Positions 4,901 to 62,450 of a stretch of 64,000 nt of DNA are shown piece after piece (within the stretch, counting starts at the first letter, position 1; each line of letters begins with the position of its first letter). The translations under genes were made by a program, and so were the position numbers. Under the pieces are notes generated by a model. The model was not told the DNA's origin. It made no database searches and saw nothing but the letters and a program-made list of their open reading frames with translations. Source of the stretch: Ischnura elegans. Lineage: Eukaryota > Arthropoda > Insecta > Odonata > Coenagrionidae. The stretch is taken from positions 110,446,917 to 110,510,916 of the forward strand of contig NC_060254.1 in the NCBI RefSeq assembly GCF_921293095.1, read 5' to 3'.

Positions 4901-7900
4901 TGAAGGATAGATTAATCAAAATTTGTCATTTTTTTTACCGGTTATTATGCTCAAGAATTTTGAGAATTAGCCTTGGTGGTTACTCAATTATCAAGATAAA
5001 ATTTCCTGACTTCTCCCAGCTACTTTCAAAATTTTCTAACAGTTTTGTAAGATGTATATAATTAAAAAGTACATATTTATTCCTTCACAATTGATAAAAA
5101 TATGATTAGGTGCTCTGCTGAAGAAAAAACTTAAATTAAACACATTAAAACAATGAAATCAAATGCAAATTTTATAAGCTAAGGACAAGGCCAAACCCAG
5201 AAAAAGCTTTTCGCTCAAGATGGTTGACGTACAGAGGGGTTACATCATGAGGGGTTCATTTATAGGGAGGACACTTAAGGCCAAAGCTACATCCCAAACA
5301 TTTTCGAGATGTCTGAGCCCGTAACTGAGGATCACTACTGCCCTGGTTCAGTAGCATCATTTGAAAGTCATTATATTTCATATGCTAGCAATTTTTGTAA
5401 ACGTCACAAGGCATAAATAACCTTAAGAAGAATACCAAAGTCATTCCGTGTTAATCTTGAAATTGAATATCTTCATGATAACTCAAATGATTTCCTGACC
5501 CCATGAAGGCATCAAAATACCTCCCAGCAAAGGGCTGGACGTCCAAATATTGATGATAGACCTATACCTCAGTGGATTAAAAGATGAAACCATTGGGCTA
5601 ATTCGACAAACAAAATCTTCACATATCAATTTTTCATTTCCCATAATATTCCAGTCTTCTGGGAAAATGGCCACCCAACTTCTATGAATGAATACTTTCC
5701 AGTTAAATTCACATTAACCATCCAATTAGAAGAGAATTTTTTATTACAATATAAGGAATCAAAATTGGTGTGAGGGAAGGCATGTTGCCACGTGAAATGA
5801 GGGTGGATTTTCAATGAGACCACAGTGCTAATAAAATCATCATTGAACTGCAATGAAAAGTGTGGATATGAATGGTAAAATAAAAGTTTTACAAGTCATA
5901 TAATTCAGCACAGTTATTAAATAGTATGACTCCATTAGCCAATGATTACAAGACTGACTCACATTTCTAAAACAAATTTCATTTGCCATTAAAACCTTTT
6001 TCTTTATGCCTACCTATGCCCAAATAATTTTCAAAAATAACCCTAGCAGAATATAGTTTTTGGTTTTTTCCCGGCGAACAATTGCAGTAAAGTTTTCTCT
6101 GGTTTTGCACCGGGTCAGGCCCTCCATGTCTACTTCCAACTTTTCGATGAACAACTCGCCCATCACCATCAGGGATTCAGGAATCCAATGATTCAATGAT
6201 CCAATGATTCCTGAATCTCGACATGACAATGGGCAAGTTGTTCATCGAAACGCTGGAAGGAGACATGGAGGACCTGACCCGGTGCAAAACCTGAGAAAAC
6301 TTTACTGCAACCCTAAAAGGATTAAATAATTGCTAACAAGCATAAAAGAGAAAACAGCCTTTTAAATCGATGGACTCACGAATGGTAGTTTGGTGTTAAC
6401 ACTGGCCTGCAATTATTGGCAACATACTCTACAAGATAACGACAATCTGGCCACTGAGAGTTGTCCGATGACAGACAGAAGGAGTTAGGGGGCAAGGTTG
6501 CTATGCAAGAAAGGGAAACGCCCACCTCACATGCAAACAAAAGGGTTCAGTGAAGAAAGAAGCCAGAAGGGATGGCGGGCGTGAAGAAGGACCCAAACGA
6601 AGAATTATTTGTTTAGGTGATTCGAAGAAAGGGCTTGTTTTGGTGGCTCAGGCTTGTTTCAGCGCTTCATATGCACGTGACAACGTTGAATGACTAGGCG
6701 AGGGTGTGAGGTGCATTTGGGGGACAGCGATTGGCTGGAAACCATGCTGGTGCAGGGCTTTCCACCCCTCCTTTATAATTGTCATCGGACAACTCTCGCC
6801 GGTTGGACTATAGTAAGTGCTGTGTAACATACCCCAGAGTCCCACACTCAAATCCAGTTAAAGCTTTTGAACAGCCCCACCTAAAAATCTCTGAGATTTT
6901 TTCCTTTCCTTGAGAAATCCTTTCACAATTATAAATCACTGAGGGCCCGCAGAAAAAAGATGGCCCCTTTAAACAGAATGTGAATTCTACACACTGATGG
7001 TTCACTCATCGGTGAGGTCTGCTTTTCACTTATGCTTTTCCCACATGAAGCATTCTTGCTGGCAGAATTGATTCCCATGAATATTATGCAACCCTCTAAC
7101 TTCTAAACTCCAGAAAAAATATAATTTCAAAATCAAGACAGATTTTGTGCCTTACCCCATACATTTGATCTAATAGGGTAGTTTCCTTCATCAAAGAAAA
7201 CGAAAGGCATTGATTGCGATTCGTTACCCACCATTAGTGTATTCATAATATACAAATTATTTCGTTTTAGAAATACCGGTTTAGACGAATGGCTATGGTC
7301 CATTTTTATCCTCATTTGAAAAGGGCCAGATTGGCGCCCATGCGATGCCACTCCACGTGATGTCACAGGGACCTAGTTTCTATACGAGAGGATAGGAGTT
7401 ATATATCGTCTGAGGTTACCAATGCATGCATGAGGCGCAGAGCTCAGGGAAATATGTCTTAATAATCACTTATTAAAACTGGCTAAGGTCGGAAATTTTT
7501 CTTCGTTCGATAAGGTATTAATAATCCTTATTTAAGCCAAGCGCTACCAGCCAGCAGGGTACTCAGCTACCCGCTAGCAGCCTGCGACGTATCAGCGCTC
7601 AACTCGCCTCAAGGTCACCTCACAGGGCGGCAGCGGGAACCAGAAATACGCCGCACGGCGGGATTTCCCAGCATTCATACTTACGCGTCGCGTTTTCGCG
7701 CGCTTGAAAATTTTCACTTTTCATTTAATCGCGAAAAATAGATATCGTCATTAAAAAATCTAAAAGCGTGAAATACGTACTCCAGGAGTAATAATCTTTC
7801 GATTTAGGCAATAAAAAAATAATAGGAAACCACCCTATTCCCCATGAAAAGACCATCTTTCCTTCTCATCTCCAAAATTGGCAACAGATGAAGCCATTGA

Positions 7901-29811: not shown

Positions 29812-32051
29812 TTCTAATAATAATAAATAATAATAATAATTTTTTTATTTGTCCAAGGATCTTATGAATACAACATAGATATAAGACACGTCAAAGTAAT
29901 CAACATAACACTTAAAAATGTAAAAATGGTCAGAGTTCATTTGTCATTTAAAAATTCATTTACACTGTAGTAGCACTTATTAATTAAAAATTTCTTTAAA
30001 GAAGATTTAAATTCCCTATTAGAATTAATCAAATTAATACTTTTGGGAAGGAAGTTAAATATTTTTGATCCCATTGCAATGGGACTTTTTGCTGCTATAC
30101 GTTTTTTATGGAGGGTAACATGGATGTGGCGATGAGACCTAGTTAGGTGCTCATGTACATCATTATTAATTGGTAAATCATTAATATTCTCTTTTATCAG
30201 TAAACATAGTTGGTATATATATATACAAGGCACTGTTAACAAATTCAGTTCTTTGAATAAGGGTTTACAAGAATAAGTATAAGGCTTACTCATTATACAT
30301 CTTATAATCTTTTTTTGCATCTTGAAAATTGTATCTAATAGCGTTACAGTTGATCCCCAGAATACAATACCATAAGTCACTCTACTTATAAAGTTGCAAT
30401 GGTAAACTGACATCATCGCCTTGTGAGGTAAGGATGCTTTTAGGAACCTCACACTATACAGTACTCGGGACAATTTCGAACACAAGTCTTTTACATGGAA
30501 GGACCAGTTCCCAGTATTTTCAATTTGTAGCCCTAAGAATTTACAAGTTTTAGTTAGACTCAGTGTATGGTTGTTCAGTGTCAATGTTCCAAAATCTTTG
30601 GAATGATTCGGGTTAAACAGCATAGACTGAGTTTTTGCACTGTTTAATTTTAATTTGTTGGAAAGACACCAATTCCAGACTAAATCTAATATATGCTGAC
30701 CATAGTGATGCACTTCATTGATGTCATTAGCTGAAATTAGGAAGTTTGTGTCATCTGCAAAGAGGACTGGTTTGACATGGATGCTATTAACAATCAAGGG
30801 CAAGTCGTTAATGAATATCAGGAAGAGTAGAGGACCCAAGATGCTACCTTGAGGGACACCTGACGTTATCTTGTTTTGGTTTGATTTACATAGTGTGTCA
30901 CTAAGTCTCATTTCAACACATTGCATTCTATTGCTAAGGTATGATTTTAGCCACTCCAGTGCGACTCCTCTGATTCCATTTTGGTGACACTTGTTTATGA
31001 GTATGGAGTGATTAACCATATCAAATGCACAAGAGAAATCAAAAAATAATGCCAAGACCTGTTTGCCATTATCCAAAGAATTTGAAATAAAATTCCAGGC
31101 AGTGATGAGGGCATCCTCTGTAGAACGTCCTTTCCGGTATCCCCACTGAGAGTTAGAAAGAATTTTGTATTTTTCCACAAAAGAAAGTAATCTGTTGTAA
31201 TATATACGTTCAAAAACTTTAGAAAGCTGTGTTAAAAGTGAGATAGGCCTATAGTTGGTTATATCATCCTTATTACCTTTGTTTTTGTACACAGGTATTA
31301 CTTTGCTCAGTTTTAGGGGTTCTGGAAAGATCCCTAGCCTCAGCGATTCATTGACTAAAAATAGTAATGGTTGCACAATAAGTTCTTTTAAATCCGCTAC
31401 TAGTCGACCAGGTATATTATCAACTCCAGGAACTGAAGAGTTAGATAATTTATCTAAGCACATTAACATTTCTTTTTCATCACATGGATAAAGGTAAAGA
31501 GAATGCACTTCACTGGTGTAATCTACTAAACAATGGTTGTTATTATTGTTTATGAGCTGGGATTTAGTTAAATTACAAAAGGCTTCGTTGATTCGATTGC
31601 ATACTATATTTGGATCAGTTATTAAAGAACCATCGTCATTGAAAAATTTTGGTACGCATGGGTTTCGTTTTTTTCCGAGCTGTGCATTGATAATTTTCCA
31701 TGTTTCCTTTGTCTTATTTTGTGCTTCAGTTATGCGTTTGTTATTAAAAGATTTTTTTGAATATTTTAGTAAAGCAGTATACTTCTTCTTTGTCTTTTGA
31801 AAATCTAAGAACAATTCATTATTCTGGGAATTTTTATATCTATGTGCTTTTTCTTTTACAATGCGTGACAAATTAATTATTTCCTCAGTGAGCCATGGTT
31901 TTTTACATTTGTTTTTCCTATTTTTAATGTTGATGGTGACGGTTGGAATGCAACACTCTATATGATGGAGCAATTTGTCGTAAAAGATCTCAAAACTATT
32001 CTCAAATGAGTGAGATATATAAACATTTTCCCAAGTTTCCAACATTAGAAC
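29812..32051 (-). mobile_element. 5'-truncated non-LTR retrotransposon (LINE, Jockey/CR1-like group)
   Basis: The element reads on the minus strand from about 32051 to a tail GGACAAATAAAAAAATTA followed by TTA repeats at 29812-29845. It carries the reverse-transcriptase frame described separately. The apurinic-type endonuclease that precedes it in complete members is missing, which fits truncation at the 5' end during target-primed insertion. A second, older 3' fragment of the same lineage at 47395-47762 ends with the same GGACAAATAAAAAA tail. The upstream neighbour is a SINE at 32163, the downstream one a piggyBac-like MITE. Confidence 0.85.
29937..32045 (-). CDS. LINE reverse transcriptase, endonuclease part missing
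   Basis: A 702-codon open frame without internal stops. Residues 1-200 are the linker that follows the endonuclease in full-length members. The reverse transcriptase runs from about 205 to 460: SVPGVDNIPGRL (about 204-215), IPVYKNKGNKDDITNYRPIS (250-269), motif A FFDFSCAFD (334-342) with the first catalytic Asp, motif B SGVPQGSILGP (395-405), and motif C FADD (429-432) with the catalytic Asp pair. A C-terminal part with KTCKFLGLQIE and NFLPKSINL, typical of Jockey/CR1-like ORF2 proteins, ends in YYSVNEFLNDK. The open frame suggests a fairly recent insertion. The first ATG at 32045 is simply the first one after the truncation point and is unlikely to be a natural start. Confidence 0.9.
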   Translation of the reverse strand: MLETWENVYISHSFENSFEIFYDKLLHHIECCIPTVTINIKNRKNKCKKPWLTEEIINLSRIVKEKAHRYKNSQNNELFLDFQKTKKKYTALLKYSKKSFNNKRITEAQNKTKETWKIINAQLGKKRNPCVPKFFNDDGSLITDPNIVCNRINEAFCNLTKSQLINNNNNHCLVDYTSEVHSLYLYPCDEKEMLMCLDKLSNSSVPGVDNIPGRLVADLKELIVQPLLFLVNESLRLGIFPEPLKLSKVIPVYKNKGNKDDITNYRPISLLTQLSKVFERIYYNRLLSFVEKYKILSNSQWGYRKGRSTEDALITAWNFISNSLDNGKQVLALFFDFSCAFDMVNHSILINKCHQNGIRGVALEWLKSYLSNRMQCVEMRLSDTLCKSNQNKITSGVPQGSILGPLLFLIFINDLPLIVNSIHVKPVLFADDTNFLISANDINEVHHYGQHILDLVWNWCLSNKLKLNSAKTQSMLFNPNHSKDFGTLTLNNHTLSLTKTCKFLGLQIENTGNWSFHVKDLCSKLSRVLYSVRFLKASLPHKAMMSVYHCNFISRVTYGIVFWGSTVTLLDTIFKMQKKIIRCIMSKPYTYSCKPLFKELNLLTVPCIYIYQLCLLIKENINDLPINNDVHEHLTRSHRHIHVTLHKKRIAAKSPIAMGSKIFNFLPKSINLINSNREFKSSLKKFLINKCYYSVNEFLNDK

Positions 32052-32162
32052 GCTTTAAGAAAGAATAGCGCACGCTGGGAGGAAGGGGACTATTCTCTTT
32101 CTCTCACGCACAGTCCGAGTAGGCATTCATCTTCCCTCAGACCGAGGCGATGATTATCTTAC

Positions 32163-33040: not shown

Positions 33041-33680
33041 ATGGGGGACAAAGGTGACCCCATGGCAAGGCCATCTAATTGTTTATAGTGCTTGCCGTTG
33101 AAGAAAAAACTGTTTTGATTGGTGCACAAATTATATGGACAATTTTGAGAGAGTTCTGTTCTGTAGTAAAAATCCCCAACTAAAAAACAGTAAAATGGTA
33201 CTGATACGTAGATGATGTGTTTTGTGTGTGGCGTGGTACGTTAAGACAGCTATCACAATTTCTGACAGTGCTCAATTCTCAGGATAAGCACATCAAATTC
33301 ACCATGGAAACTGAGAAGGAAGGCGTTTTGAATTAATTGGACCTCGCCATAAGAATCATAAATCATAAGTTCGACCTTTCCATCCACAGGAAAGAACGAT
33401 ATTCCGACACCATCATCCACGAGAGCTCCAGACACCATATTCAACAAAAAACAGCAGCCCTCAAATCGCTGATACATAGGTTATGCCACATTCCTATGTC
33501 GGAAATAACATGGCAAATGAACTCCGTACCATAAAGGACATTGCTGTCAACAATGGCTACAAAGAAAAATTAGTGGATTAACGACGAAAAAGAACTCAGA
33601 TGGCAAGACGTCTAATATATAAAATGCATAATCCCCCGGAGGGATCTCCTTAACGGTGCCGGATTCCCTTCCTTGGGAAT

Positions 33681-34190
33681 TTGTCACTAAGAGTGCAAAG
33701 ACTACTTCCAAAAGAAAAAATAAGGCCAGCCTTTTATAACCACAGCACATTAAGGAGCATGCTGGGGTCACCAAAGGACAGGGATATCCCGGAGGAAAGG
33801 AGCGGAGTATATTGCCTCAATTGCTCTGACTGTGACGCGATTTGCATCGGCCAAACAGGGGGGAGTTTTTCCATCAGGGCGGCCGAGCACCAGATGTGTC
33901 ATAGACAGGGGAATGATCACTCACAATTTGCAAAACACCTTATCGACATGGCGCACATTACTAACTTCATCCCTACTATTCTGCACTTTGAGAAGAAAGG
34001 ACGGAGATTAGACGCCCTGGAAGAGCTGGAAATTTTAAGCCACAGGGACTCATACCTGTTCAACGACCACCTTTACCCTTCTCGCTCCCCCCTCCTCCAC
34101 TTTCCCCCTTACTCATCCACCCACCCCACCCACAGTGACGCCAAACCCAGCTCCAACCCCAACCTCCCCCTAACCAACGGCTCCAGGTAA
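33681..34190 (+). pseudogene. GIY-YIG endonuclease domain of the Penelope-like element
   Basis: An open stretch of 169 codons. It contains SGVYCLNCSDCDAICIGQTG and GSFSIRAAEHQ, the GIY-YIG core with the Cys-rich pattern found in Penelope-like elements, followed by HSQFAKHLIDMAHI and LDALEELEIL, and a Pro/Ser-rich tail. In complete elements this domain nicks the target DNA. It belongs to a broken element and is not a host gene. The first ATG is not a natural start. Confidence 0.8.
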
Positions 34191-34247
34191 TTTTCCCTAC
34201 CCAACCTTCTGCTATACTATATACTGCCAATTTACCTGAATTTCCAC

Positions 34248-34286
34248 CTTGATAATGTTACTCTGTAACGAAACCTGGTCGGTGTC
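34248..34286 (+). ncRNA. Hammerhead-ribozyme-like core at the 3' end of the Penelope-like element
   Basis: TTGATAA (consensus CTGATGA), one T, a perfect five-pair stem GTTAC/GTAAC closed by TCT, then GAAAC and GGTC. This is the order of a minimal type I hammerhead: box 1, stem II, GAAA box, very short stem III, GUC cleavage triplet. Penelope-like elements are known to carry such ribozymes. The match is degenerate, so cleavage activity is doubtful. Confidence 0.5.
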
Positions 34287-38180: not shown

Positions 38181-38587
38181 TCCAATCAATGAAATGATAT
38201 CAAATCATCAGAGGCAGCCTGAACATCATTGGAAGGCAACTTTCACGAGGCATCATTAGCTATGGGATCAAATTATTATACAAAACATACAGTATATGTC
38301 TGAATATAGTCCCCCCTTTTTTTCCAAAAATGCCCGTGGTAAAAGTTAAGGGGGGACTATATTCAAACGGACTACATATATTCAAACGCATTTTTTAACT
38401 TTTCCCAAAAATGAAGCCTCAAAATTAGGGGGGGGGGGGGAAATATATTCAGAGGGGGACTATATTCGGAGAAATACGGTATGTTTGATATAATAATTTG
38501 ATCCCATAGCTAATGATGCCTCGTGAAAGTTGACTTCCGATGATATTCAGGCTACCTCTGATGATTTGATATCTTTTCATTGAGTGG
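38181..38587. mobile_element. Nested palindrome: foldback with the GAATATAGTCC element in its centre
   Basis: The left arm from 38181 (CCAATCAATGAAATGATATC, GAGGCAGCCTGAA, CTTTCACGAGGCATCATTAG, CTATGGGATCAAATTATTAT) is mirrored nearly base for base by the right arm ending at 38587. The arms continue inward into ATACAGTATATG/TATTTCTCCGAATATAGTCC, the inverted ends of the short element also seen at 3163-3336. The full inverted arms are about 130 bp each. There is no coding capacity. Confidence 0.7.
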
Positions 38588-39616
38588 AGTTCGGAGAATG
38601 TCCCAGGATTTGAAAAAATCACCTATTACTCATTAGCTGGCAGCAAGTAGCTCAGTAGTACTTTTTAGCACAAAATGTGATGGAAAAATCAGAGAGAAAA
38701 TTATAAAGGAATAATAATTATTGAACTCACATTTTACGGTCATGTACATGTGCCATTCAATTTCACTCATCTCTGACAAGAGATGATTATAAGGTAAGTC
38801 AAGAAAAATAAACTTTCATGATGCAATAATTTAAAAATCAACAACTTTTTTGAACACAGTAATGGGTACTATAAAAAATAGCATGTATTAAAACAATTAA
38901 TGGCACCTAATTACATATTAGGCTACACAATGGAAAAAGTCATGGGAGTTTTACAGGTACTTTCAAAACACATGGACTTTTGTTTGGCAAATCCTTGTGG
39001 AGATTTTTTGTGGCACAGACAATTTCCATGCCCCACAAATAATTCATTCACCTTTGTTTAGAAACCCCAATCGAAAGAACATGTGGCAATGCACAGATAA
39101 AGACACAAAATCAGTAAATGACAGAATGTTTTAAAGATTTGAATAGCATATCCAAACATACATTTCAAGCACATTACGAGGCCAAATGAAATTATTTAAA
39201 TATGGGATTCACGATCACAAAGGCGTTTCACAAAAACAACTGAGAGAGGTGGATGAGTGAAACATTTTAAGCAATCGAATGCCTTTCCATCTTCACAATC
39301 ACTGGAGCTTCGCATATTTTACCATCAATTTAAAAGTTCACTTATAATCCAAAAGAAAATGCTGGTTATGAATTCAAAAAGTCCTCCAAGGTGAACTAAT
39401 AGAGAATTTGGATTTCTGGTTTACCATGAATGTTTAGGTGCCTTCACTTAGAAAATATACCAAACAACAGTATAGAATGTGAGAGATAAAAAAAAAACAA
39501 ATATAGTCATTAACCAATGTATCAATGAAGGTATGATACTGTTCTGCACTTATGCATTTCAAAGATCTGTAAAAATTGGTTAATGCGAGTAAAAAAAAGC
39601 ATTTATGTCTGGCTGT

Positions 39617-42662: not shown

Positions 42663-43780
42663 TCAGCCACAGGAACCCGATCTCCGCCTCGGAGCTCCTG
42701 GTCGGCCAGTAGATGGAGACGACGGAGGAGGGGATGTCACGGGACAACGGAGGGTGGGAGACTTTATTCTGGACCACACCAACCTCAGCTCGGAGGCATC
42801 CAAGCGATGCGCAGTGAAGCTGTTACGATAGCCACACGGATCGTCAATCCTTCTCCTCTGATAGCTGAAGGCAGGGTGGTCCCTGGGATGGAGACCAGAG
42901 GCCCGTGCACACATACCCGTCACAAACACATCCTCGAGATGGAAGAGGGGAGTTGAGAGAGCTGAAGAAAGAAGTCTCCTCGCCACCGAACGAGACATGA
43001 TGTACCCTGTTCCGGATAAGTAGTCCGGGTACACACGGCCTGAGTACATGTATCTGGGAGCGTACCACTTGGACCGCGTGCTCGAAATGGGCCTCGCACC
43101 ACATATGAGGGTCCCCTCCAACAGCGTATCCTCAGCGTCAAAGGGCATGACACGGATTGCCCGAGATTGGCCACGCGCTTGGCCCCCCTCGGTCCCGCCT
43201 AACCTCCGTCTCCTCTGCCACTTCCTCCTCTGACGCACCCTCTCCCGTAGGTGTGCCACAATCGCACCCACGTTCACAAACATGTCGTCGTCAGTCTTCA
43301 TGATGTAATGGGCTACGGGGCAATGCTGTGCCGTCCACTTGAGCAGCATCACCGACTTGAGAGTGAGGTTGTTGTACGTGTCCACGAAACCTTCCTGGAT
43401 GATGTCTCCGTGGAGGCGACTCTCTTCTGCGACCCTGCTCTGGAGGGCCGCCACCGAGTGTTCGTAACCACCCTCTTCGTCATCGTCTTGGGGAGGGGGA
43501 GGGTGACCGAGGAGGAACGCAACACGTGCCGTCGGCAGCGCTGCTTCCAAAGCCCACGTTTCACGGATGGACTGCCTGGCTTCAAAGTTCGACACAGCAG
43601 AGCACACAATGACCAGAAGTAACAAACCGTCCTCGTCTCCGTCTTTCTCTGCCTTCCCAGGGTGCTGTGTGATGGGCAAGGTGCATATGTTGGGGGCTGG
43701 AATGATGGCTGTTTCATTGTCTGGCTGGACATACACCCGCAGGTCACGAGTCGTGTTGAGGCTCCACCCAAATATTGGAG
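42663..43780 (-). CDS. Galactosyltransferase gene, terminal exon with the whole catalytic domain
   Basis: It follows an ACCATTTCCAG acceptor; the two leading bases complete an alanine codon split with the anchor exon. It encodes 371 residues and stops at TGA (42665-42663). It is far more GC-rich than its surroundings, especially around the Arg-rich insert QRRKWQRRRRLGGTEGG. Single-exon catalytic domains are common in this family. Several long open frames on both strands over it are shadows. Confidence 0.93.
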
Positions 43781-46700
43781 CTGGAAATGGTGCAAAAATT
43801 ACCATTAATTCCTTTAAGTTTTACATAAGTCTAATATTCAAATTGATTTACCAAGCTAAAAGAAAAGTCTATAGTATTTTATATACAAATCTAGTAATAG
43901 CATACAGGGTATTGACGTTTATCAATGTATAATAACTTGGTAAAAGAAAACTAATTTTCATATTTCAAAGAACCCAAAACATCTTTCATATAGAAAGAAC
44001 TAGAGCCATCTGAAGAAAAAAAAATACTTTCAATTTCATTTAAAAAAATATTTCATTTCAATACTTCAATAAAAATTAATTAGCTAATAAAAGTTTCCAA
44101 TATATCACATTTTTCATCAGCCATGACAAGCAACACAGCTGCAAATCACATCTTGAAAAAATTTCACGGCAAGCCCAAGAAGTTCTATTTATGATAAATG
44201 ACTAATGGAAAAAAAGCACAAAACTATACTCTTCAACACAAATGACCTCGATTCCACTTGTACAAGCACTAAGCTTCAGCAGCTAATTAGAAATATTTTT
44301 ACTGGAGAAAAAAAAATTACCTACCCAGCAAGAAATGGCAAGTGATTTAATTCCAATTGAGAATGCAAGTGCTTCACACCAAATGTAAAATAATTAAACC
44401 TCCATGACCTCACCTGGTTTAGGCTATTCTTCATTTTAATACCAAGATATTCATTTCTGCAAACATTCACCTATTGCAGCAAATGATTTTACGCTCAGTT
44501 TTGAATTTTTAATGGCTAAGTAAGAGATACATTTTTCATAAGAATCTTTCATCTTTCTATTAGATTAATTACAGAATTGTTTTTTTCCTGATTGAATTGC
44601 ATATGATAATAATAAATAAATAATAAAGTAATAAATGATATTGCGTAATAATGTAAGTAACTAGTTGAATAATTTTTGTACTTATTTTGTACGTGCTTAC
44701 CAGGCAATTTTTATTTTAACGAATATTATTTTAATTCTACTATTTTCATTCATGTAAAATGGTGTGACCAAGGATTAATGAATATATCAGATTTTTAAAA
44801 TTAAAAATAGTATTCTAATAATAGTTACTGAATACAATGGTAAATGTTTACAAACAAGACTGATTTAACTGTTATAGGAATTTAAAATATTTTCAAAGCA
44901 AAATAGGAAGCAAAAGGTTTTCGTACACTATTAATAGACTAGCATTTTAACTTATAAATTTTCTACATGATTAATCTTTCAGCAATGATTCTCTCCCAGA
45001 AATCATGACACCTCACTGGCAATCAAAATAATGATGAGTTACAAGTAGATTAAGATGGTAGGATAGCTATTTGAAACATGGATAAACATTTAACTCATCC
45101 TGAAGAAAACAACATGGCACACAGATAAAACAAGTCATAAATCTTCAACTAAACATACTTGACAGAAGTATAGATTTACAAGGATAGAAAAATAATTTTT
45201 CTACAAAAAACACAGCAAATAACAATCTACCGAAATTTCACCACTGAGTAAAAACTTTTTACTATTACAGCATTAACACATTCAATGAGGGATCAAATGC
45301 ATAATTTTTCCTCCATATTCAGACAAATTTTATTATTTATTTTTTTAAATTTGGGTAATTGGTAGAGAGGGCACAAGAGCAGTCCTGGAAAAATAAAATG
45401 TACATACTCAACTGTTGCTGAAGAGAAAAAGGTACTACATCAACATCAGAGAATTCTCAGTACGGTGACATAGTTGGACAAGAAATTCTGGCTGCCTAAC
45501 ACAAAATCATATGATGCAGGACAGTTAAAGTTCTCTAATTTTGGGAGTTATCTTTTCTGAGGCCAAAACAGACTGCACAACATGAAAGAAGGTAGCTAAC
45601 AATGGATACGGAGGCTCTCAATGGGAATGCATCAAATGGTAAGATGATTTCTGAGATACACGGAATGGATGAAGCTAAAAATTTAAAATGAAATAATCGT
45701 TAATTAATGAACTCTTCATGTTGGTATAAACACTGAAAACATGAAGTGACACAGTCCACACTGAATGTGTTAAGTAGAAAGACGAAAGGCATGCAAATAA
45801 TAACATCTTTCACGTTTTAGCAATTTGAGAATGATAATTACAAACACCAAGATAGAAAGTCAGCTAAACAAATTGTACATTACTTTAGATTCATAAGTTC
45901 AATCAAAATGAGAACATTCCACTGCAAAGGCATACCCAAGTGACGTTCAAGATTTCCTCCATCACTCAAAGCTCACGGCATAAGTAAACATCTACATGCC
46001 CACTGCAAATGCACACCTATAAACCATTCATACATAATATATATGACGGTAATTCTACCAAACGCTTAAAAAAAATGGAACTACAAGAAATTTAAAACAT
46101 AAATGACAATAAGGTCCAAGTTTCAAATCTAGAGAGTCTGTAGTCAGGATTTAGGCCATATGTACACTTTCAAGTGAAACGGAGCAATGCAGGATTTCAG
46201 TACACATATATATCGTACGCAGGAACGTATTTCTCAAACAAAACACTCTAGCATGCTAAGGAGTCTTGCCCAATAAATACCTACTTTTCCGAGAGTTCTT
46301 GTTGAAATGAAACACTGCAACAGAAAGCAAGCATAAAATCTGAACTTCAGCAATTTGAGGAAATTCAAGTAAATCATGAAAACAATCTTTGAGCTTTTGT
46401 ACCAACCACATGCAAAGGCTATGACCACAGAGTAGGCAACTATGTATGTCTTACGACTAACCCGGTTGAATTATGAACTCTAGTCAATTCCTGACAGGCA
46501 AAACGCGCATGGTAATGATGTAGTGTCGATGGCACTTGAGACAGTGGCGGCTAGTGCCAAATGTGCTGCTCCCTCCTTTCCTAATCCCCTCCTCTATCAA
46601 AATGAGTGCAAATTAAAATTTTCTCACTCATTTGCAATAAATGAAGAAACCAATAGCAATCAGGTTAAAGTATATCAAGACTAGCCACGGTGATAACTTA

Positions 46701-49700
46701 TACAGGAGTCACCTGCAATGCACAATCGTGCGAAAGATCCACAGAGACAAAATCATCCGCCTTGACCGGGATTCGAACCCGGATCCCCCAATTTCCAGTT
46801 GAGTGCTTTAGACAGCTAAGCTACCTAGGTGTCATTCTTCCTTGTGGATATTTTTGGACACTACCGGACGAGGTGATGCTGGACTGCTGAGCATATGATG
46901 CCACAAGCAGTCCAAATCGTGCGCACAGCGCCACAGCCGGAGAGCAGGCCCATAGTCAAACTAGTCAAGAGCGAACACTTCTACGTGTTTTATGTCCGCA
47001 AATATCCACAGGGAAGAATGACGCCTCGGTGGCTTAACTGGCTAAAGCACTTGGCTGGAAATCGGGGGATCTGGGTTCGAGTCCCGGTCAAGGCGGATGA
47101 TTTTTTCTCTGTGGATCTTTTGCACAAAAGCAATCAATCTTTCCTGCTAACGAATGTACCAACCACCTTGGCACTGGAGACGCCGTTTCCTTTTCAATAG
47201 AGAGCACTGCCAGTACAATTAGCCATTCCTCTGGCATGACAGTCTGCAGGGTCTGCAGAAAGGTCCACTTGGGTGATGAAAAACAACTCCATGGTTTAGG
47301 TTCTTGGATCTGTCAGCGTTTAATGCCTTTCTTTGAAGGTCATCTCAGATCTGTATTAAAGTTTGCCACTTTCATGCATTAGTATGCATGTAAAAAATAA
47401 CATTCTTCAGTACACATCAAATGACCTAAACCACGGCCACAACACTAGAACTTGTAAAGAACAGCATCAAAACTTTATCAGGACTCAAAATACAGCCCTA
47501 GGTCCTAAACCTGATGGTTTTTAATGGGCTGCCTCCAGAGGTGAACAATGAGAGTAGGACTTCGGTCTTTAAGAAGAAACTACTGAAGTTCCTGAAAAAA
47601 AATCTATTTTATTCGGTTAATGATCTTCTGCATTTGTAACACATAATTTAGATATTCCAATTTAATTTTTATTGATTATGTACCTAAATTGAAGTGTCCT
47701 ATATTTGTATTTTGTGCACAACCTACAGATCTCTGGACAAATAAAAAATATTATTACTAATGCTGTGGCATCTCAGGGAATCCTACATCATGGACCATCA
47801 ATCATACAGCATAAGTCTTGAGGGATGGAACCAATATTCTCAGTCATATTACTTATTCTGTTGACTTCATGGATGAAAGTTAAAAAAGCAGATTTAAATT
47901 TCACAACAGCAACAGTTTTTGATTGCAACTGACGGTAGAGGATATCCACACACAGCATTAATTCAAGGAAAAATTTTAGCCAAAAGATGAATTCCTCATA
48001 TTTTGAAGTCTGCTAAAGCTCCTTTTCTTAAAGAAAACATTCATTTGACGGTTTTTCTCCATGTTCAACATGAAATCAAACGAGTCTCTAATTTCATGTA
48101 TGATGTCAACGTTGCATTACTTGATGTAATGCAGTAACATAGCCAGGATTTTGAATTGGGGGGAAGGGGGGGGGGGGAGTTAACTGGAGATTTTGGGGCT
48201 CTTCCGGGGTGTATGGAAAACACCCCAGGGCAAAGCGGCATTTTTGGCACTTCTTTTTAAGGCTCAGGAGGGGTTATAACCCAGATCCCCCTCCCCTCCA
48301 TGGCTAAGCCATTGATGTTATGCACCTGGTTGAGATTCTCTGAGTAAATAGTATAAATAGTCAATATGTTTTACTGTGAGGTCACGGGTTTTGGCTATAA
48401 ATAAATGAAACATCAGCTACCTTACTTCCATAATTAAAATGCATACAATTCAAGAACTTTCAATTGAATACTATTTGAAACCACTGTATTATAGATCGTT
48501 GACGGAAGTTATTTTTTCACAGGTAAAAATAATGCATGCTCAATATTGGCCCAAGAGAACTAAGTCACTAATAATGCCATAGCTATTTACTGTTGCCTAC
48601 TATAGGGTTAATCCATCATGCAATGACACTTGCACCAGGCCATGGTTGTGAATATAAGACACCACATTGATCCACACAACAAATAACTAACTGCAATTAA
48701 CTTTCTGTGTGACCAAACAGCAAGTTTAAAAAGTGCTGTCCCCCAGTGGCGAAAATGAATGCATATTCCAAGCTATGGCTATGCCGAGAGGTAGCCCTAT
48801 CCAATGCACAGCACACTGTTTACCATGTGCAAAACTGCGTTTTATACCCGTTTTAGGAGAATCACAGCAAATTTTTGCTAGTTGAGAACTAGGCAGCACA
48901 CATTGCTGAGTGTATTGTGTGATACTTCTCGCCCAAAGGGGAATTCTTAAGACTTTGATCCATGTACCATGCATCATTATTCACTCCAATTGAATTAAGA
49001 AGGATGCGGTTAGTCTTATTTAAATTATTTAATGCACTACAGCTCTTCAGCACACAAGCACCAGCCGCCACTGACTTTAGATGCTCCTCTCCTTAACCAA
49101 ATACAATATATAATAGCTTTCTTTCTCCTAAACCATCCATATTAAGAAAGCAAAATTATTGCAGCAAATGATTAATGAACAGACATTGCCTAATTTCTAC
49201 AGTAACAGTAAGGCATAGTAAAAATAACATAAAAATAGGTAAAGACTGCATACGAAAATAAGATGCCAGAATTTAGTTCTCAGTTTTCTGGCCAAAAATA
49301 TGAGAACATCTGATCGTAACTTACCCCAGCCTCAGGAGAAGTCTTATTAAACCAACCTAGGAGTCAAAGCTTGGCAGCTTGAAATAAGCCATGAGATGAA
49401 GTTAATGCCATCCATGAAAGTTTTAAAGTGAAAACCTTTTTGTGTTCATTAAATTTTACTGGAGACACAAAAAATTATTATTCTTTTTTCTTTTTCTAGC
49501 CTTGTTTGTCAGCCCTAAAAGAAGCTTGGTAGAATTTTCCATTTACCAAAATACCAGGGTAATAAAGCAACAATAAAAATAATGTGAGATAGAGTATTCC
49601 AAATAGCCATTTAGAATGGGCTTCATGCACCAGGAAAAATATTCTGCAAGATTTATTTCCTTCGAGTAACAACCAAGTCTAGATAAAAGAAAGAAGGAGT

Positions 49701-53153: not shown

Positions 53154-53403
53154 CAGTGGCATTGCCAAGGAGTGGGGGTCCGGACCACCCCCGAAATATA
53201 TAAACACAATCATTTTCCTTCATAAAAGAAAACAAAATATTGAAAAATAATGAATTTACTAAATATTTCTTTTACAAATAAATATTTTCGATTATGAAAA
53301 CTGTTGAAATTAGTTTGAAACCCTCTAATTAGTACTATGTTATTAAAAAATTTCCCCCCCTGGTTTTGGATCCCCCCGAACGAAATTCCCGGCTACGCCA
53401 CTG
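53154..53403 (+). mobile_element. CAGTGGC...GCTACGCCACTG element (hAT-like, copy 1)
   Basis: CAGTGGCATTGCCAAGG at the left and CCCGGCTACGCCACTG at the right form the termini. The flanks CTAAAGCA and CTAGATCA agree at six of eight positions, which fits an aged 8-bp hAT target duplication. The interior CCTTCATAAAAGAAAAC-AAAATATTGAAAAAT is shared with the copy at 53829-54056. Confidence 0.6.
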
Positions 53404-53828
53404 CTAGATCAGTTGCACGTAGTTACAGAATTGTTTAAAGCACGGGGAGTTTCTAGCACAGTGACAGCTTTTACGTTTATCATCGTGTATCCATTACGAA
53501 AATAACGCCTACCAACGGAAGAAGTAGAGACGCTATTAAATATTATATATAAATATATTAAAAATTAATAATAAAAAATAAAGGGCTTCATAGTTTTCCG
53601 ACTGATTTCATAAGACAAACTCCATTAAACTAGGATATCTTACCAATTGTCGCTAGAAATCATATTTATAAAAGAATAAAATCTTCGTGATCTCGAAAAA
53701 AAGAACTCCTCGTTATTAATGATTTACATGAATGTTTAATGATTTAAAAATGGCTAGCAGGCCCTCCGGCGTTGCTCGGGAAGGATAGCACCTACCCAGA
53801 GAAGAGGGAAACTTGGAATTCATTGTCA

Positions 53829-54056
53829 CATGGCAGGATTTAAAAAAACCGGGGTGGAAAAAGTTTGAAAAACAGGGTACGAATTTGGGGGTTTTAAACT
53901 AATTTTAACAATTTCATTTATCAAATTTATCTTTTGCAAATTCGTAATTTTTCAATATTTCGTTTTCTTTTATGAAGGAAAGAAATTGTGCTTTTACATT
54001 TGGGGGGGGGGGAGAAGGGGACGGACCCCCTGGACCTCCCCCTCGCTACGCCAATG
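53829..54056 (-). mobile_element. Same hAT-like element, copy 2 in opposite orientation
   Basis: Read from 54056 on the minus strand: CATTGGCGTAGCGAGG, G/C tracts, then CCTTCATAAAAGAAAACG and AATATTGAAAAATTACG as in copy 1. The two copies are about 430 bp apart and form an inverted pair. Confidence 0.6.
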
Positions 54057-59937: not shown

Positions 59938-60010
59938 GGCCTGATAGCGCAACTGGTAGAGCACTCGACCGGTCATCGAGAGGTTCTGGGTTTGCATCCC
60001 AGTAAGGCCA
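59938..60010 (+). repeat. tRNA-like sequence, probably a SINE head or tRNA pseudogene
   Basis: A cloverleaf can be drawn: acceptor GGCCTGA/TAAGGCC with one mismatch, D arm around AGCGCAACTGGTAGAGC (good A box), a perfect anticodon stem CTCGA/TCGAG with loop CCGGTCA, and a T stem CTGGG/CCCAG. The loop has C instead of T before the anticodon, GGT would be unusual for a eukaryotic Thr tRNA, and the B box (GGTTTGCATCC) is off consensus. An ATTTTT run follows, then a CT-rich SINE-like tail. Confidence 0.5.
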
Positions 60011-60792
60011 CATTTTTGCTCTTTGACTTCTGGCCTTTTCCATATACCATAGCACCGTTACCCTCGCCTTATCTAATATGCATTCTTACCCCTTTCTTTC
60101 TTTCTTATCCTATGTATTTATTAGTAAATAGTATATTTGTTAGCGAATTAATGCAAAATTTTAACAATATTTTCATGACAAAAGAGTGTTTCAACCAGAG
60201 GGTTGGTTGGGGTGGGCGAGGATAGAGCCGAAACAGTGTGAACTTCACACCTTTAAGGTGGGGGAGCTAGGCCCTTTCCCTCTTCGAGGATTCTCATTCG
60301 GGATGTCCGAGGGCTTCGAACTTGGGTCCCGTAAGACCACAGGACATGACGATCATCCTCCTAAGACTTAAAGGAGACAATTTTTAAAATATAGCAACTC
60401 AATTTTTATGTACAACGGAAGTCCTTGTTATAATTTTAGCTTAAATTCATGCCGTATCCATTTCTTCTATGTAGTATATCAAAGAGGATGTCTGTTTGTC
60501 TGTCCACTATGCATTTCCATACGACATTACGGATATACACCAAAGTTAGTACATAGGGTCATCTCATGCTCCAAAAGCCCGCGATGCTATTTATAGTTGT
60601 GTCCGACATGTCCTTCGCGTGGTTTTCTCATTACAGTTTGTTACGTAACATCATACATCTTCCGTGGACATCCTGCCGGATAGGCACCCCCAATTGACAG
60701 GAAAAAACCTGGGGAAACATAAATGAAAGGATACTTATGTACACCTATCAATCCTTATGGAGGGAACCTTTTTCCTAGTGATGTATGATCTT

Positions 60793-60982
60793 AGGTTTTC
60801 CCGGCGTATGAAGTGCAGAAAAGTTTCTCGGGTTTTCCACCGGTTAATGTTCTCCATGTCTCCCTTGACGTTTCGAGCTGCGACTTGCTGTTCGTACTCA
60901 GGGGATCTTCTGATCTTCAGGAGACACGTCGCGAGACTTGGATAACATTAACCGGTGGAAAACCCGAAAAACTTTTCTGCAC
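60793..60982. mobile_element. Foldback element 2 with hammerhead-like arms
   Basis: The arms are GTGCAGAAAAGTTTCTCGGG, TTTTCCACCGGTTAATGTT on the left and their inverse ending at 60982. To the left is AGGTTTTCCCGGCG, as beside foldback element 1, and the arm words (GCAG.AAAGTTT, CACCGG, CTCCATGTCT) match that element. On the minus strand the inner left arm reads CTGAGTA, a partly paired stem, then CTCGAAACGTC, the order of a decayed hammerhead core. Confidence 0.6.
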
Positions 60983-61765
60983 TTTTTTCTAGTGCATGCG
61001 TTCACACGAGGTGTTTGGTCTACGCGCGTACGGACACTCGTAACGATCAATGTTGAGGAGCGGGATATAAACTGATCCCGTGCGCTGTACACGGAAATAG
61101 TTTTTTTTCCATTGTTTGATGCAACATATGTATACAATCATTACGGATGCGTGAAAATCGCAAATGCGATATAGATGCGATGTGCGCGAATAAATGCGAC
61201 GTATAGATGCCATGACTGGACTTTTATGATGTTTTTACGCAAATTTGCTCTTTCGACGGCAAAATTCGTACATTTTGTGCCGAGCGCAGTTTAAATGCTC
61301 CGCCGACACTCACCGCTTAAAGCATGGCGAAGTGAGCGAATGGCCAGCTGCTAGTTGGCTGGGACACTACGTGACTGCGAACTACAAGTGGGCGCGGGCA
61401 AGCTACACCTTTGTTATTGTTCTACAACATAATTATTTAAAATATTCTGTATTTTGTAATATTAATGTGTTCCACTACATTTTATCGTCATCTACCTCAT
61501 TATGAAAATAAAAAATAGGCGCTACAAAATTCGATAAACTGTTATTGAAAGTTCGATAAAATAAAAATGAAAGTGCGATTGTCACGTATCTCTAATCATC
61601 ATCATACCTGCTTTGTTTCTTTTCATAAAAATCGTGCCATGTGACCATGAATTCCAAGTTCCAAAATTCCCACTCTTCTGCGGGTACTATACTTCCCGAG
61701 AAACGCCGGGGGCCAGCTAGTTGATAATAAAAACAAAAAAATTAATGAAAGAATGAATATTGAAT

Positions 61766-62010: not shown

Positions 62011-62040
62011 TTTTCCTTTTATCTTGACCTCATTTAATTA

Positions 62041-62450
62041 ATGATAAAATAATTCTTGGAGTACAGGTCAAATGTATATGATGCTAAAAAGTTGCTAGCC
62101 AACGCTTCAGTTTATTAAAAACTATCACCAGCGCTGCGAATGAAAACATGAGAACGATATAAAATACAATGATAGACAATATTTTTACATACATAAAGGT
62201 TACGAAAGATGTAAAGATTCCTGCACTTTTTTCTTGTACATGCGTTCACACGAGGTGTTAGGTCAACGTGCTTAAAAAAATACTTTCGTAACATTTATTT
62301 ATGTAAAAATATTGTATATCATTGTATTTCATATTGTTCTCATGTTTTCATTCACAGCCCTGATGATAGTTTTAAATAAACTGAAACGTCGGCTAACAAC
62401 TTTTTTGCATCATTTATATTTGACCTATGCTCCAAGAATTAATTTATCGA
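62041..62450. mobile_element. Foldback element 3 with 170-bp arms and a hammerhead-like core
   Basis: The left arm 62041-62215 (AATTCTTGGAGTACAGGTC, AAAAAGTTGCTAGCC, GAATGAAAACATGAGAACG, CATACATAAAGGTTACGAAAG) is mirrored by 62280-62450. The 64-bp loop contains CTGCACTTTTTTC, GCGTTCACACGAGGTG, which is also found at 60977-61020 right beside foldback element 2. An 82-codon plus frame over the right arm is a shadow. Confidence 0.75.
62360..62390 (+). ncRNA. Hammerhead-like core in the right arm of foldback element 3
   Basis: CTGATGA, one T, a five-pair stem AGTTT/AAACT with loop TAAAT, then GAAAC directly followed by GTC. Both catalytic boxes are exact. With ACGT in place of stem III, such a core could only close as a dimer, as proposed for minimal hammerheads in retroelements. 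The opposite arm holds a diverged copy on the minus strand. Confidence 0.5.

Follow-up and report, generated by a model that had tools for sequence, protein, structure and literature searches.

The three foldback elements in a 64,000-nucleotide window (the whole stretch of DNA analysed, from the damselfly Ischnura elegans) are very probably short insertions made by Penelope-like machinery, in which a second arm was joined to the first head to head at insertion. Their arms are inverted, no pair carries two tails, target sites are duplicated, and an open frame starts within the arm; moreover, loops are unique and palindrome-derived in the family of the foldback at 6 kb, and variants are common to both arms in that family and in the one at 60.8 kb. 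The architecture itself is not new: the foldbacks look like the head-to-head inverted pLTRs of Penelope-like elements (PLEs), as in rotifers. They bear on the way in which PLEs copy themselves. The families in this genome are large and include very young copies; junction length varies among these, and the joining step is therefore readable from sequence alone.

Foldback arms and their genomic copies

An initial annotation of the window had placed foldbacks at 6 kb, 60.8 kb, and 62 kb, and a repeat search of the window found all three to be real, with computed inverted repeats at 62043-62208/62283-62448 (89% complementary), 6082-6163/6229-6310 (93%), and 60811-60862/60933-60984 (94%). We refer to the corresponding families as F1 (62.0-62.4 kb), F2 (6.1-6.3 kb), and F3 (60.8-61.0 kb), and to the PLE end at 34 kb as F0. 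Genomic copies were drawn from the 1,722,721,009-base assembly of 110 contigs, the window being part of its contig C9 (chromosome 9), and those used for tails and loops were chosen as best matches to queries that included the tail or the whole foldback. The initial annotation was right that each arm is a PLE-type end bearing a hammerhead, present in inverted copy, but the ends are shared with the PLE at 34 kb only in kind, not in sequence. The features of the four loci, with the basis of each in brackets, are as follows:

6052-6082, minus strand: F2 insertion tail (F2 alignment)
6083-6163, minus strand: F2 tail arm, pLTR with ORF start (inverted repeat; F2 alignments)
6128-6178, minus strand: F2 tail-arm hammerhead, degenerate (covariance model, E 0.022)
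6229-6309, plus strand: F2 tail-less arm, first box lost in the window copy (inverted repeat; F2 alignment)
33205-33531, plus strand: F0, putative remains of a PLE reverse transcriptase, YVDDVF..., with one stop inside (motif only)
33654-34190, plus strand: F0, putative PLE ORF with a GIY-YIG-like motif, GVY-x10-CIG (motif only)
34245-34284, plus strand: F0 hammerhead, core TTGATAA, in which U3-A8 replaces C3-G8 (descriptor; copy alignment)
60768-60780, no strand: F3 left target-site duplication, CTTTTTCCTAGTG (duplication script)
60781-60813, minus strand: F3 insertion tail (F3 alignment)
60814-60907, minus strand: F3 tail arm, with its hammerhead at 60858-60907 (covariance model, E 4.6e-6; F3 alignment)
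60933-60981, plus strand: F3 tail-less arm, cut before the first hammerhead box (inverted repeat; sequence)
60982-60994, no strand: F3 right target-site duplication, CTTTTTTCTAGTG (duplication script)
62015-62042, minus strand: F1 left-arm tail (minus-strand match of the window copy, L001, to position 59 of the tail query)
62043-62208, minus strand: F1 left arm, inverted pLTR end with tail (inverted repeat; tail match)
62094-62138, minus strand: F1 left-arm hammerhead, damaged, CTGGTGA and GAAGC (covariance model, E 8.3e-6; letters from the model alignment)
62209-62282, no strand: F1 inter-arm spacer, 74 nt (compared by eye)
62283-62448, plus strand: F1 right arm, tail-less PLE-type pLTR end (inverted repeat; 46 F1 arms aligned; PLE-like frame upstream in other loci by eye)
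62353-62397, plus strand: F1 right-arm minimal hammerhead, core intact, AGCC-CTGATGA-T-AGTTT..AAACT-GAAACGTC-GGCT; the box contains an ATG (descriptor and covariance model)

In F1, F2, and F3 alike, at most one arm per foldback carries a tail of about 30 nt. In F2, the 40 best copies match the query arm and tail at 97-100% identity. An inverted partner was found for 24 of them, in two cases as a short partial match only; all 24 partners end at query position 98-111 of 137, short of the tail, so that two-tailed pairs number 0/24. For the remaining 16 of the 40 best copies no inverted arm was found. Target-site duplications of 11-18 bp, called by script with mismatches allowed, reached a score of 9 or more in 21/27 F2 copies and in 0/702 cross-copy controls; the 27 exclude the window copy (L051), at which the script detected no duplication. 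The F2 open frame starts inside the hammerhead, with MGELFIETLEGEMEDLTRCETRENFTAIVRREKNKNY in copy L064, and the tail ends 111 nt after the ATG. This start runs without a stop in 147/150 scored genome copies, and among these 150 scored starts, taken from 9315 first-look candidates, there was no long-ORF F2 copy, the longest open frame being 273 aa and the next 202. The scored copies thus include no autonomous parent for F2, a result that counts against the explanation we favour.

F3 is similarly organised, with target-site duplications in 15/20 copies at a score of 8 or more (controls 1/380) and in 9/20 at a score of 9 (1/380), and its open frame likewise starts inside the hammerhead, with MISKSRIETSGDMDDINRWKTRETFLH.. 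in copy L088. The F2 and F3 ORF starts are related (L064 against L088: alignment score 57, compared with a maximum of 27 in 2000 shuffles); of the 36 codons compared, 12 differ at the first position, 11 at the second, and 16 at the third, which gives no clear sign of selection on a protein.

Elsewhere in the genome the F1 arm is a 3' end of variable inward length (441 nt and more in common), and the sequence inward of it in other loci reads by eye as the C-terminal part of a putative PLE protein; a profile search of this PLE-like sequence returned no match. Among the 13 F1 pairs lying within about 600 bp, nine have one tail, four have none, and none has two. This count omits the wider pairs L044 (about 1 kb) and L041/L042 (12 kb), none of whose arms scored as tailed. 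Rare arm variants common to both arms were counted in nine F1 pairs, with six in L003, two in L022, one each in L004 and L016, and none in the other five; the window copy has 0. For most of the nine pairs this test is uninformative because F1 has little subfamily structure. Such weak sharing (at least two rare variants in only 2/9 pairs) counts against the best explanation. The script detected no target-site duplication at the window F1 copy, a result that, like that for the window F2 copy, weighs on the same side.

Two further observations concern F1. Its spacer at 62209-62282 looks, by eye, like the DNA to the right of the F3 insertion (60977-61023), a likeness that suggests a captured or shared host repeat. 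The two arms L041 and L042 (G000:C9:57565400-57577800), about 12 kb apart and in opposite orientation, each lie within one half of an inverted pair of stretches, about 3.2 kb long and with a 100% match between the halves, which reads as a recent inverted duplication or a large palindrome.

For F0, searches of Pfam and NCBIfam yielded no match to the reverse transcriptase remains or the GIY-YIG-like ORF, a PDB search with the latter gave chance-level matches only, and an AlphaFold model of a single F0 sequence (pLDDT 39.9) was unusable. Its putative identity as a PLE is accordingly read from motifs by eye and from architecture, not from profiles, and this too counts against the explanation we favour.

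Several other features of the window were recorded. A foldback at 38181-38588 has arms of 135 nt that are 91% complementary; neither it nor the inverted repeat at 53185-54010 holds a hammerhead-like core by eye. A tRNA-like inverted pair at 46728-46860 / 46993-47125 (Rfam tRNA, 50.1 and 47.1 bits) perhaps represents tRNA-derived SINEs placed head to head, and further tRNA-like units occur at 59938 and 61770. On the minus strand, a 705-aa open frame at 29937-32054 with an RVT_1 domain (E 4.4e-34) is probably a non-LTR retrotransposon, and a 385-aa open frame at 42663-43820 is by eye a putative beta-1,3-galactosyltransferase.

Hammerhead-like cores

A hammerhead core consists of C3-U4-G5-A6-N7-G8-A9 together with G12-A13-A14 (numbering partly as in PMC11167929). 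Family copies of F1, F2, and F3 have this core, and one extra pyrimidine lies between the first box and stem II in all four families F0-F3 (by eye). Cores had been reported at four loci of the window, and they do exist, but only that at 62353-62397 is fully intact there; intact boxes are found in other genomic copies of F1, F2, and F3 according to the copy alignments. The F1 foldback had been described as exact in both boxes, which is true of its right arm (CTGATGA...GAAACGTC, with a stem I of 4 bp and a stem II of 5 bp) but not of its left arm (CTGGTGA, GAAGC). The window F2 copy has CTGATGG and GAAAA in its tail arm and, in the other arm, keeps GAAAC and lacks the first box. In the window F3 copy the tail arm reads CTGAGTA with GAAAC (CTGAGGA in most of the tail arms aligned), and the tail-less arm has no first box; the same box is not intact in the tail-less arm of most of 20 F3 copies by eye. 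Exceptions are L085 and L095, in which the tail-less arm retains the box and the tail arm lacks it, with the junction placed differently, and these junctions may help to separate joining mechanisms.

The F0 core departs from the others in its box, TTGATAA, present in the window and in 9/11 other copies (L099-L109), and the swap to U3-A8 means that the 3-8 core pair is kept. GAAAC is lost in 3/11 of these other copies. A palindromic CCATGG lies at stem III of F0 in 10/11 of the same set.

A descriptor made of stem I, box, 0-1 extra nt, stem II, GAAAC, and GTH, composed once the motif was known, matches the window only at 34249 and 62360 and has 0 matches in 100 first-order Markov sequences. With Rfam, neither the window nor a set of 20 out of 98 loci (9 F2, 8 F3, and 3 F1) gave a hammerhead up to E = 10. 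Strong scores for Rfam miRNA families on F2 and F3 loci lie below those families' own cut-offs, reflect long hairpins, and were taken as chance. The initial annotation had itself set the lack of a significant covariance-model score as a refutation; on that count Rfam goes against the hammerhead reading, but a model (R1) trained on five F1 and five F3 sequences does not. F0 was left out of the training because MAFFT misplaced its 3' stem I strand. In the window, the model scores the F1 right arm at 62353 (plus strand) at E 1e-14, a locus that is itself one of the 10 training sequences; the F3 tail arm at 60858 (minus) at 4.6e-6, where F3 was trained and the window copy was not; the F1 left arm at 62094 (minus) at 8.3e-6, where F1 was trained and the left arm was not; and the F2 tail arm at 6128 (minus) at 0.022, F2 being outside the training set. 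Both arms were found in 20/20 F2 loci (14.0 to 32.5 bits, E 0.3 or better), a held-out test that is not fully independent because the F2 and F3 ORF starts are related. On F0 loci the model found 0/11. Putative ribozymes on opposite strands do face each other in F2, as these loci with two scoring arms show, but within the window none of the foldbacks keeps an intact core in each arm.

Pairing in the stems was assessed on the F1 and F3 alignment. Here, 91.8% of pair cells are standard versus 20-44% for slid versions, and 5/9 pairs change on both sides between F1 and F3. Stems I and II pair in both families, with the numbers of cells paired and of cells changed on both sides, as well as the covariation score, above all 500 shuffles. 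Two other measures failed to exceed the shuffles, namely the number of pairs that change on both sides (81 of 500) and that of pair types (500 of 500); together with the codon-position result, they slightly lowered our confidence in the favoured explanation. A comparison of two families also amounts to scarcely more than a single contrast.

In F1-F3, stem III is a loopless 2 bp, and a dimer would be needed for action; PLE hammerheads are described in two accounts (PMC6155905, PMC7761336) as minimal, lacking helix III, and possibly cleaving as dimers. The predicted fold of a 255-nt F2 foldback RNA is one hairpin of -215.5 kcal/mol, and the window F1 foldback comes to -204.5 kcal/mol; the predicted energies of the hammerhead regions lie at -10.8 to -19.4 kcal/mol in F1-F3 and at -6.9 in F0. 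A transcript of the whole foldback is thus predicted to bury both ribozymes in a hairpin. An outward transcript from the palindrome would comprise one arm and could form the putative ribozyme.

We think it rather unlikely that the cores are relics of coding or terminal sequence without ribozyme activity. The Rfam nulls and the loopless stem III of F1-F3 would fit such relics, as would the behaviour of the Poseidon element PAc of Anolis, whose hammerhead is inactive without protein and whose hammerhead mutants leave insertion in vitro unaffected (PMC11167929). On the other hand, stems I and II still pair across families and the 3-8 core pair is retained as U-A in F0, which argue against relics, and a loopless stem III is consistent with the dimeric action reported for amphibian hammerheads and suggested for those of PLEs in the available portions of that literature.

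Origin of the second arm and the loop

The loops of F2 are distinct in 28/28 copies, at 7-33 nt, and are rich in pieces of the palindrome at the pLTR start, from which 108/399 of their 5-mers derive (shuffled mean 9.3, maximum 24 in 1000 shuffles). At the same time, the two arms of a copy resemble each other: at three diagnostic F2 sites the two arms match in 27/28, 27/28, and 28/28 copies (82/84, where chance is 51-58%), and arm divergence is 3.5% within copies versus 5.6% between them (0 of 10000 permutations; n = 28 copies). In F3 the corresponding values are 6.5% and 8.1% (p 0.0002; 19/20 copies, one having been dropped for a gapped match). Inheritance of whole foldbacks would put each new variant into a single arm and give sister copies a common loop, and F2 shows neither. 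Unique loops combined with arm variants in agreement make it most likely instead that a single template gave rise to both arms whenever an insertion took place; the second arm would thus probably have been remade each time, through self-priming or twin priming.

We infer the enzyme acting, the order of steps, the choice between self-priming and twin priming, and the role of the ribozyme from these patterns, and the resulting scheme would run as follows. The copied RNA would start near the pLTR start, where the minimal hammerhead of the pLTR overlaps the ORF start codon. Reverse transcription would begin inside this RNA, about 111 nt into the ORF (the tail end), so that nothing beyond the pLTR and the ORF start would be copied. 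This stretch would then be present in a second copy, which begins or finishes some 30 nt short of the site and is attached head to head at the 5' end of the pLTR. There, a short palindrome (GGATTCCTGAATCC in F2) could allow either a fold-back of the cDNA end or annealing between two such ends. Scraps of the palindrome would be caught up in the junction, giving each insertion a loop of its own.

Other origins were weighed against this scheme. Compact palindromes flanked by duplications could also be MITE-like DNA transposons with terminal inverted repeats that resemble hammerheads by chance, but the fixed-length duplications and symmetric ends expected of a MITE or foldback DNA transposon were not found: duplication length varies (11-18 bp in F2), the ends are unequal with a tail on one side, the open frame starts within the arm, and the hammerhead model transfers between families, which together make this origin extremely improbable. 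The initial annotation had envisaged a non-autonomous, ribozyme-bearing family. In a true family of this kind, the whole palindrome would be transcribed and then copied as a unit by PLE enzymes. F2 and F3 are indeed abundant and ORF-less, and with whole-foldback queries 40/40 and 40/40 of the scored candidates match in both orientations (first-look candidates 2218 and 1635, respectively). Yet 28/28 unique F2 loops and arms that change together are not expected under inheritance, and for 16 of the 40 best F2 copies no inverted partner was found; we therefore regard that account as improbable.

The alternatives within the preferred reading, insertion by Penelope-like machinery with a second arm made at each event, are harder to separate. 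Twin priming, in which both nicked target strands prime cDNA from the same RNA pool, with one cDNA per start site and cDNA ends joining at the palindrome, has a chance somewhat short of even. Cutting and extension of both strands, and the use of two adjacent start sites, are documented for the PAc protein (PMC11167929), and twin priming would account for the asymmetry of tails and for spacers like that of the window F1 copy, which is 74 nt long. Independent choice of start sites should, however, give some two-tailed pairs, and these number 0/24 in F2 and 0/13 in F1 (the latter, at n = 13, not a strong departure); furthermore, almost every F2 copy would have to come from two RNAs that carry identical variants. 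That no two-tailed pair turned up tilts the case towards one arm being a copy of the other. With a chance likewise somewhat short of even, F2 and F3 may be high-copy, ORF-less PLE mini-elements in which only the tail arm is hereditary, the opposite arm and the loop being rebuilt per insertion, and in which the propagating RNA would start at the pLTR palindrome in the loop and run outward through the tail arm. If true, each loop would label a single insertion event like a unique barcode and would record self-priming directly.

Comparison with known systems

Minimal type I hammerheads of PLEs, located within the pseudo-LTR, were reportedly described by Cervera and de la Pena in 2014 and by Lunse et al. 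in 2017. As far as they are covered in the available portions of reviews, the cores found here resemble them in having little or no helix III and in their location in the pseudo-LTR, and differ from them in the extra pyrimidine before stem II in F0-F3 and in the U3-A8 pair of F0.

The closest parallels concern two PLE systems. In the rotifer Adineta vaga, the available portions of one report (PMC3846280) describe Penelope elements (Pen2a_Av and others) with head-to-head inverted pLTRs, an optional 31-bp tail on one of them, target duplications of 8-10 bp, and a palindrome at the pLTR 5' end, and its authors inferred self-priming in 2013 from palindromes at inverted junctions. The damselfly elements share the inverted pLTRs, the single tail, the target duplications, the palindrome at the pLTR start, and a pLTR containing the ORF start, and their tail-less arms are comparable to the inverted pLTR of A. 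vaga, which is shorter by 37 bp (PMC3846280, same portions). They differ in that, among the small number of A. vaga copies described, an inverted pLTR generally lies beside an ORF, whereas here ORF-less pairs are numerous and the F2 loop is unique to each copy, and in duplication length (11-18 bp in F2 by script versus 8-10 bp). In PAc, the commonest start of reverse transcription lies 111-118 nt into the ORF, the tail is tied to the stretch between two start sites, and the hammerhead overlaps the start codon, its 3-8 core pair having been examined by mutation (PMC11167929). The families described here are like PAc in the hammerhead over the start codon and in an F2 tail that ends 111 nt into the ORF, and unlike it in that no long ORF was found among the scored F2 starts and in that the PAc study stresses tandem, not inverted, copies; the U3-A8 core of F0 provides a naturally occurring equivalent of the C3/G8 mutants assayed for PAc (PMC11167929).

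Metazoan non-LTR retrozymes are also short and ORF-less, carry type I hammerheads, and are thought to use PLE enzymes, according to the available portion of PMC7229834; these are direct tandem repeats that yield circular RNA, whereas the elements here are inverted pairs or single units. The portion of PMC12910113 available to us contains nothing on inverted pLTRs for D. virilis, and the literature surveyed by title and abstract, mostly open-access, gives no description of ORF-less, high-copy inverted pLTR pairs with unique loops. Self-priming was proposed from rotifer copies (PMC3846280, in the portions available), and the damselfly genome offers many more copies on which to follow it. The kind of element is therefore known, and its high-copy ORF-less form, together with the copy-by-copy evidence for how the second arm arises, appears to be new within the literature covered.
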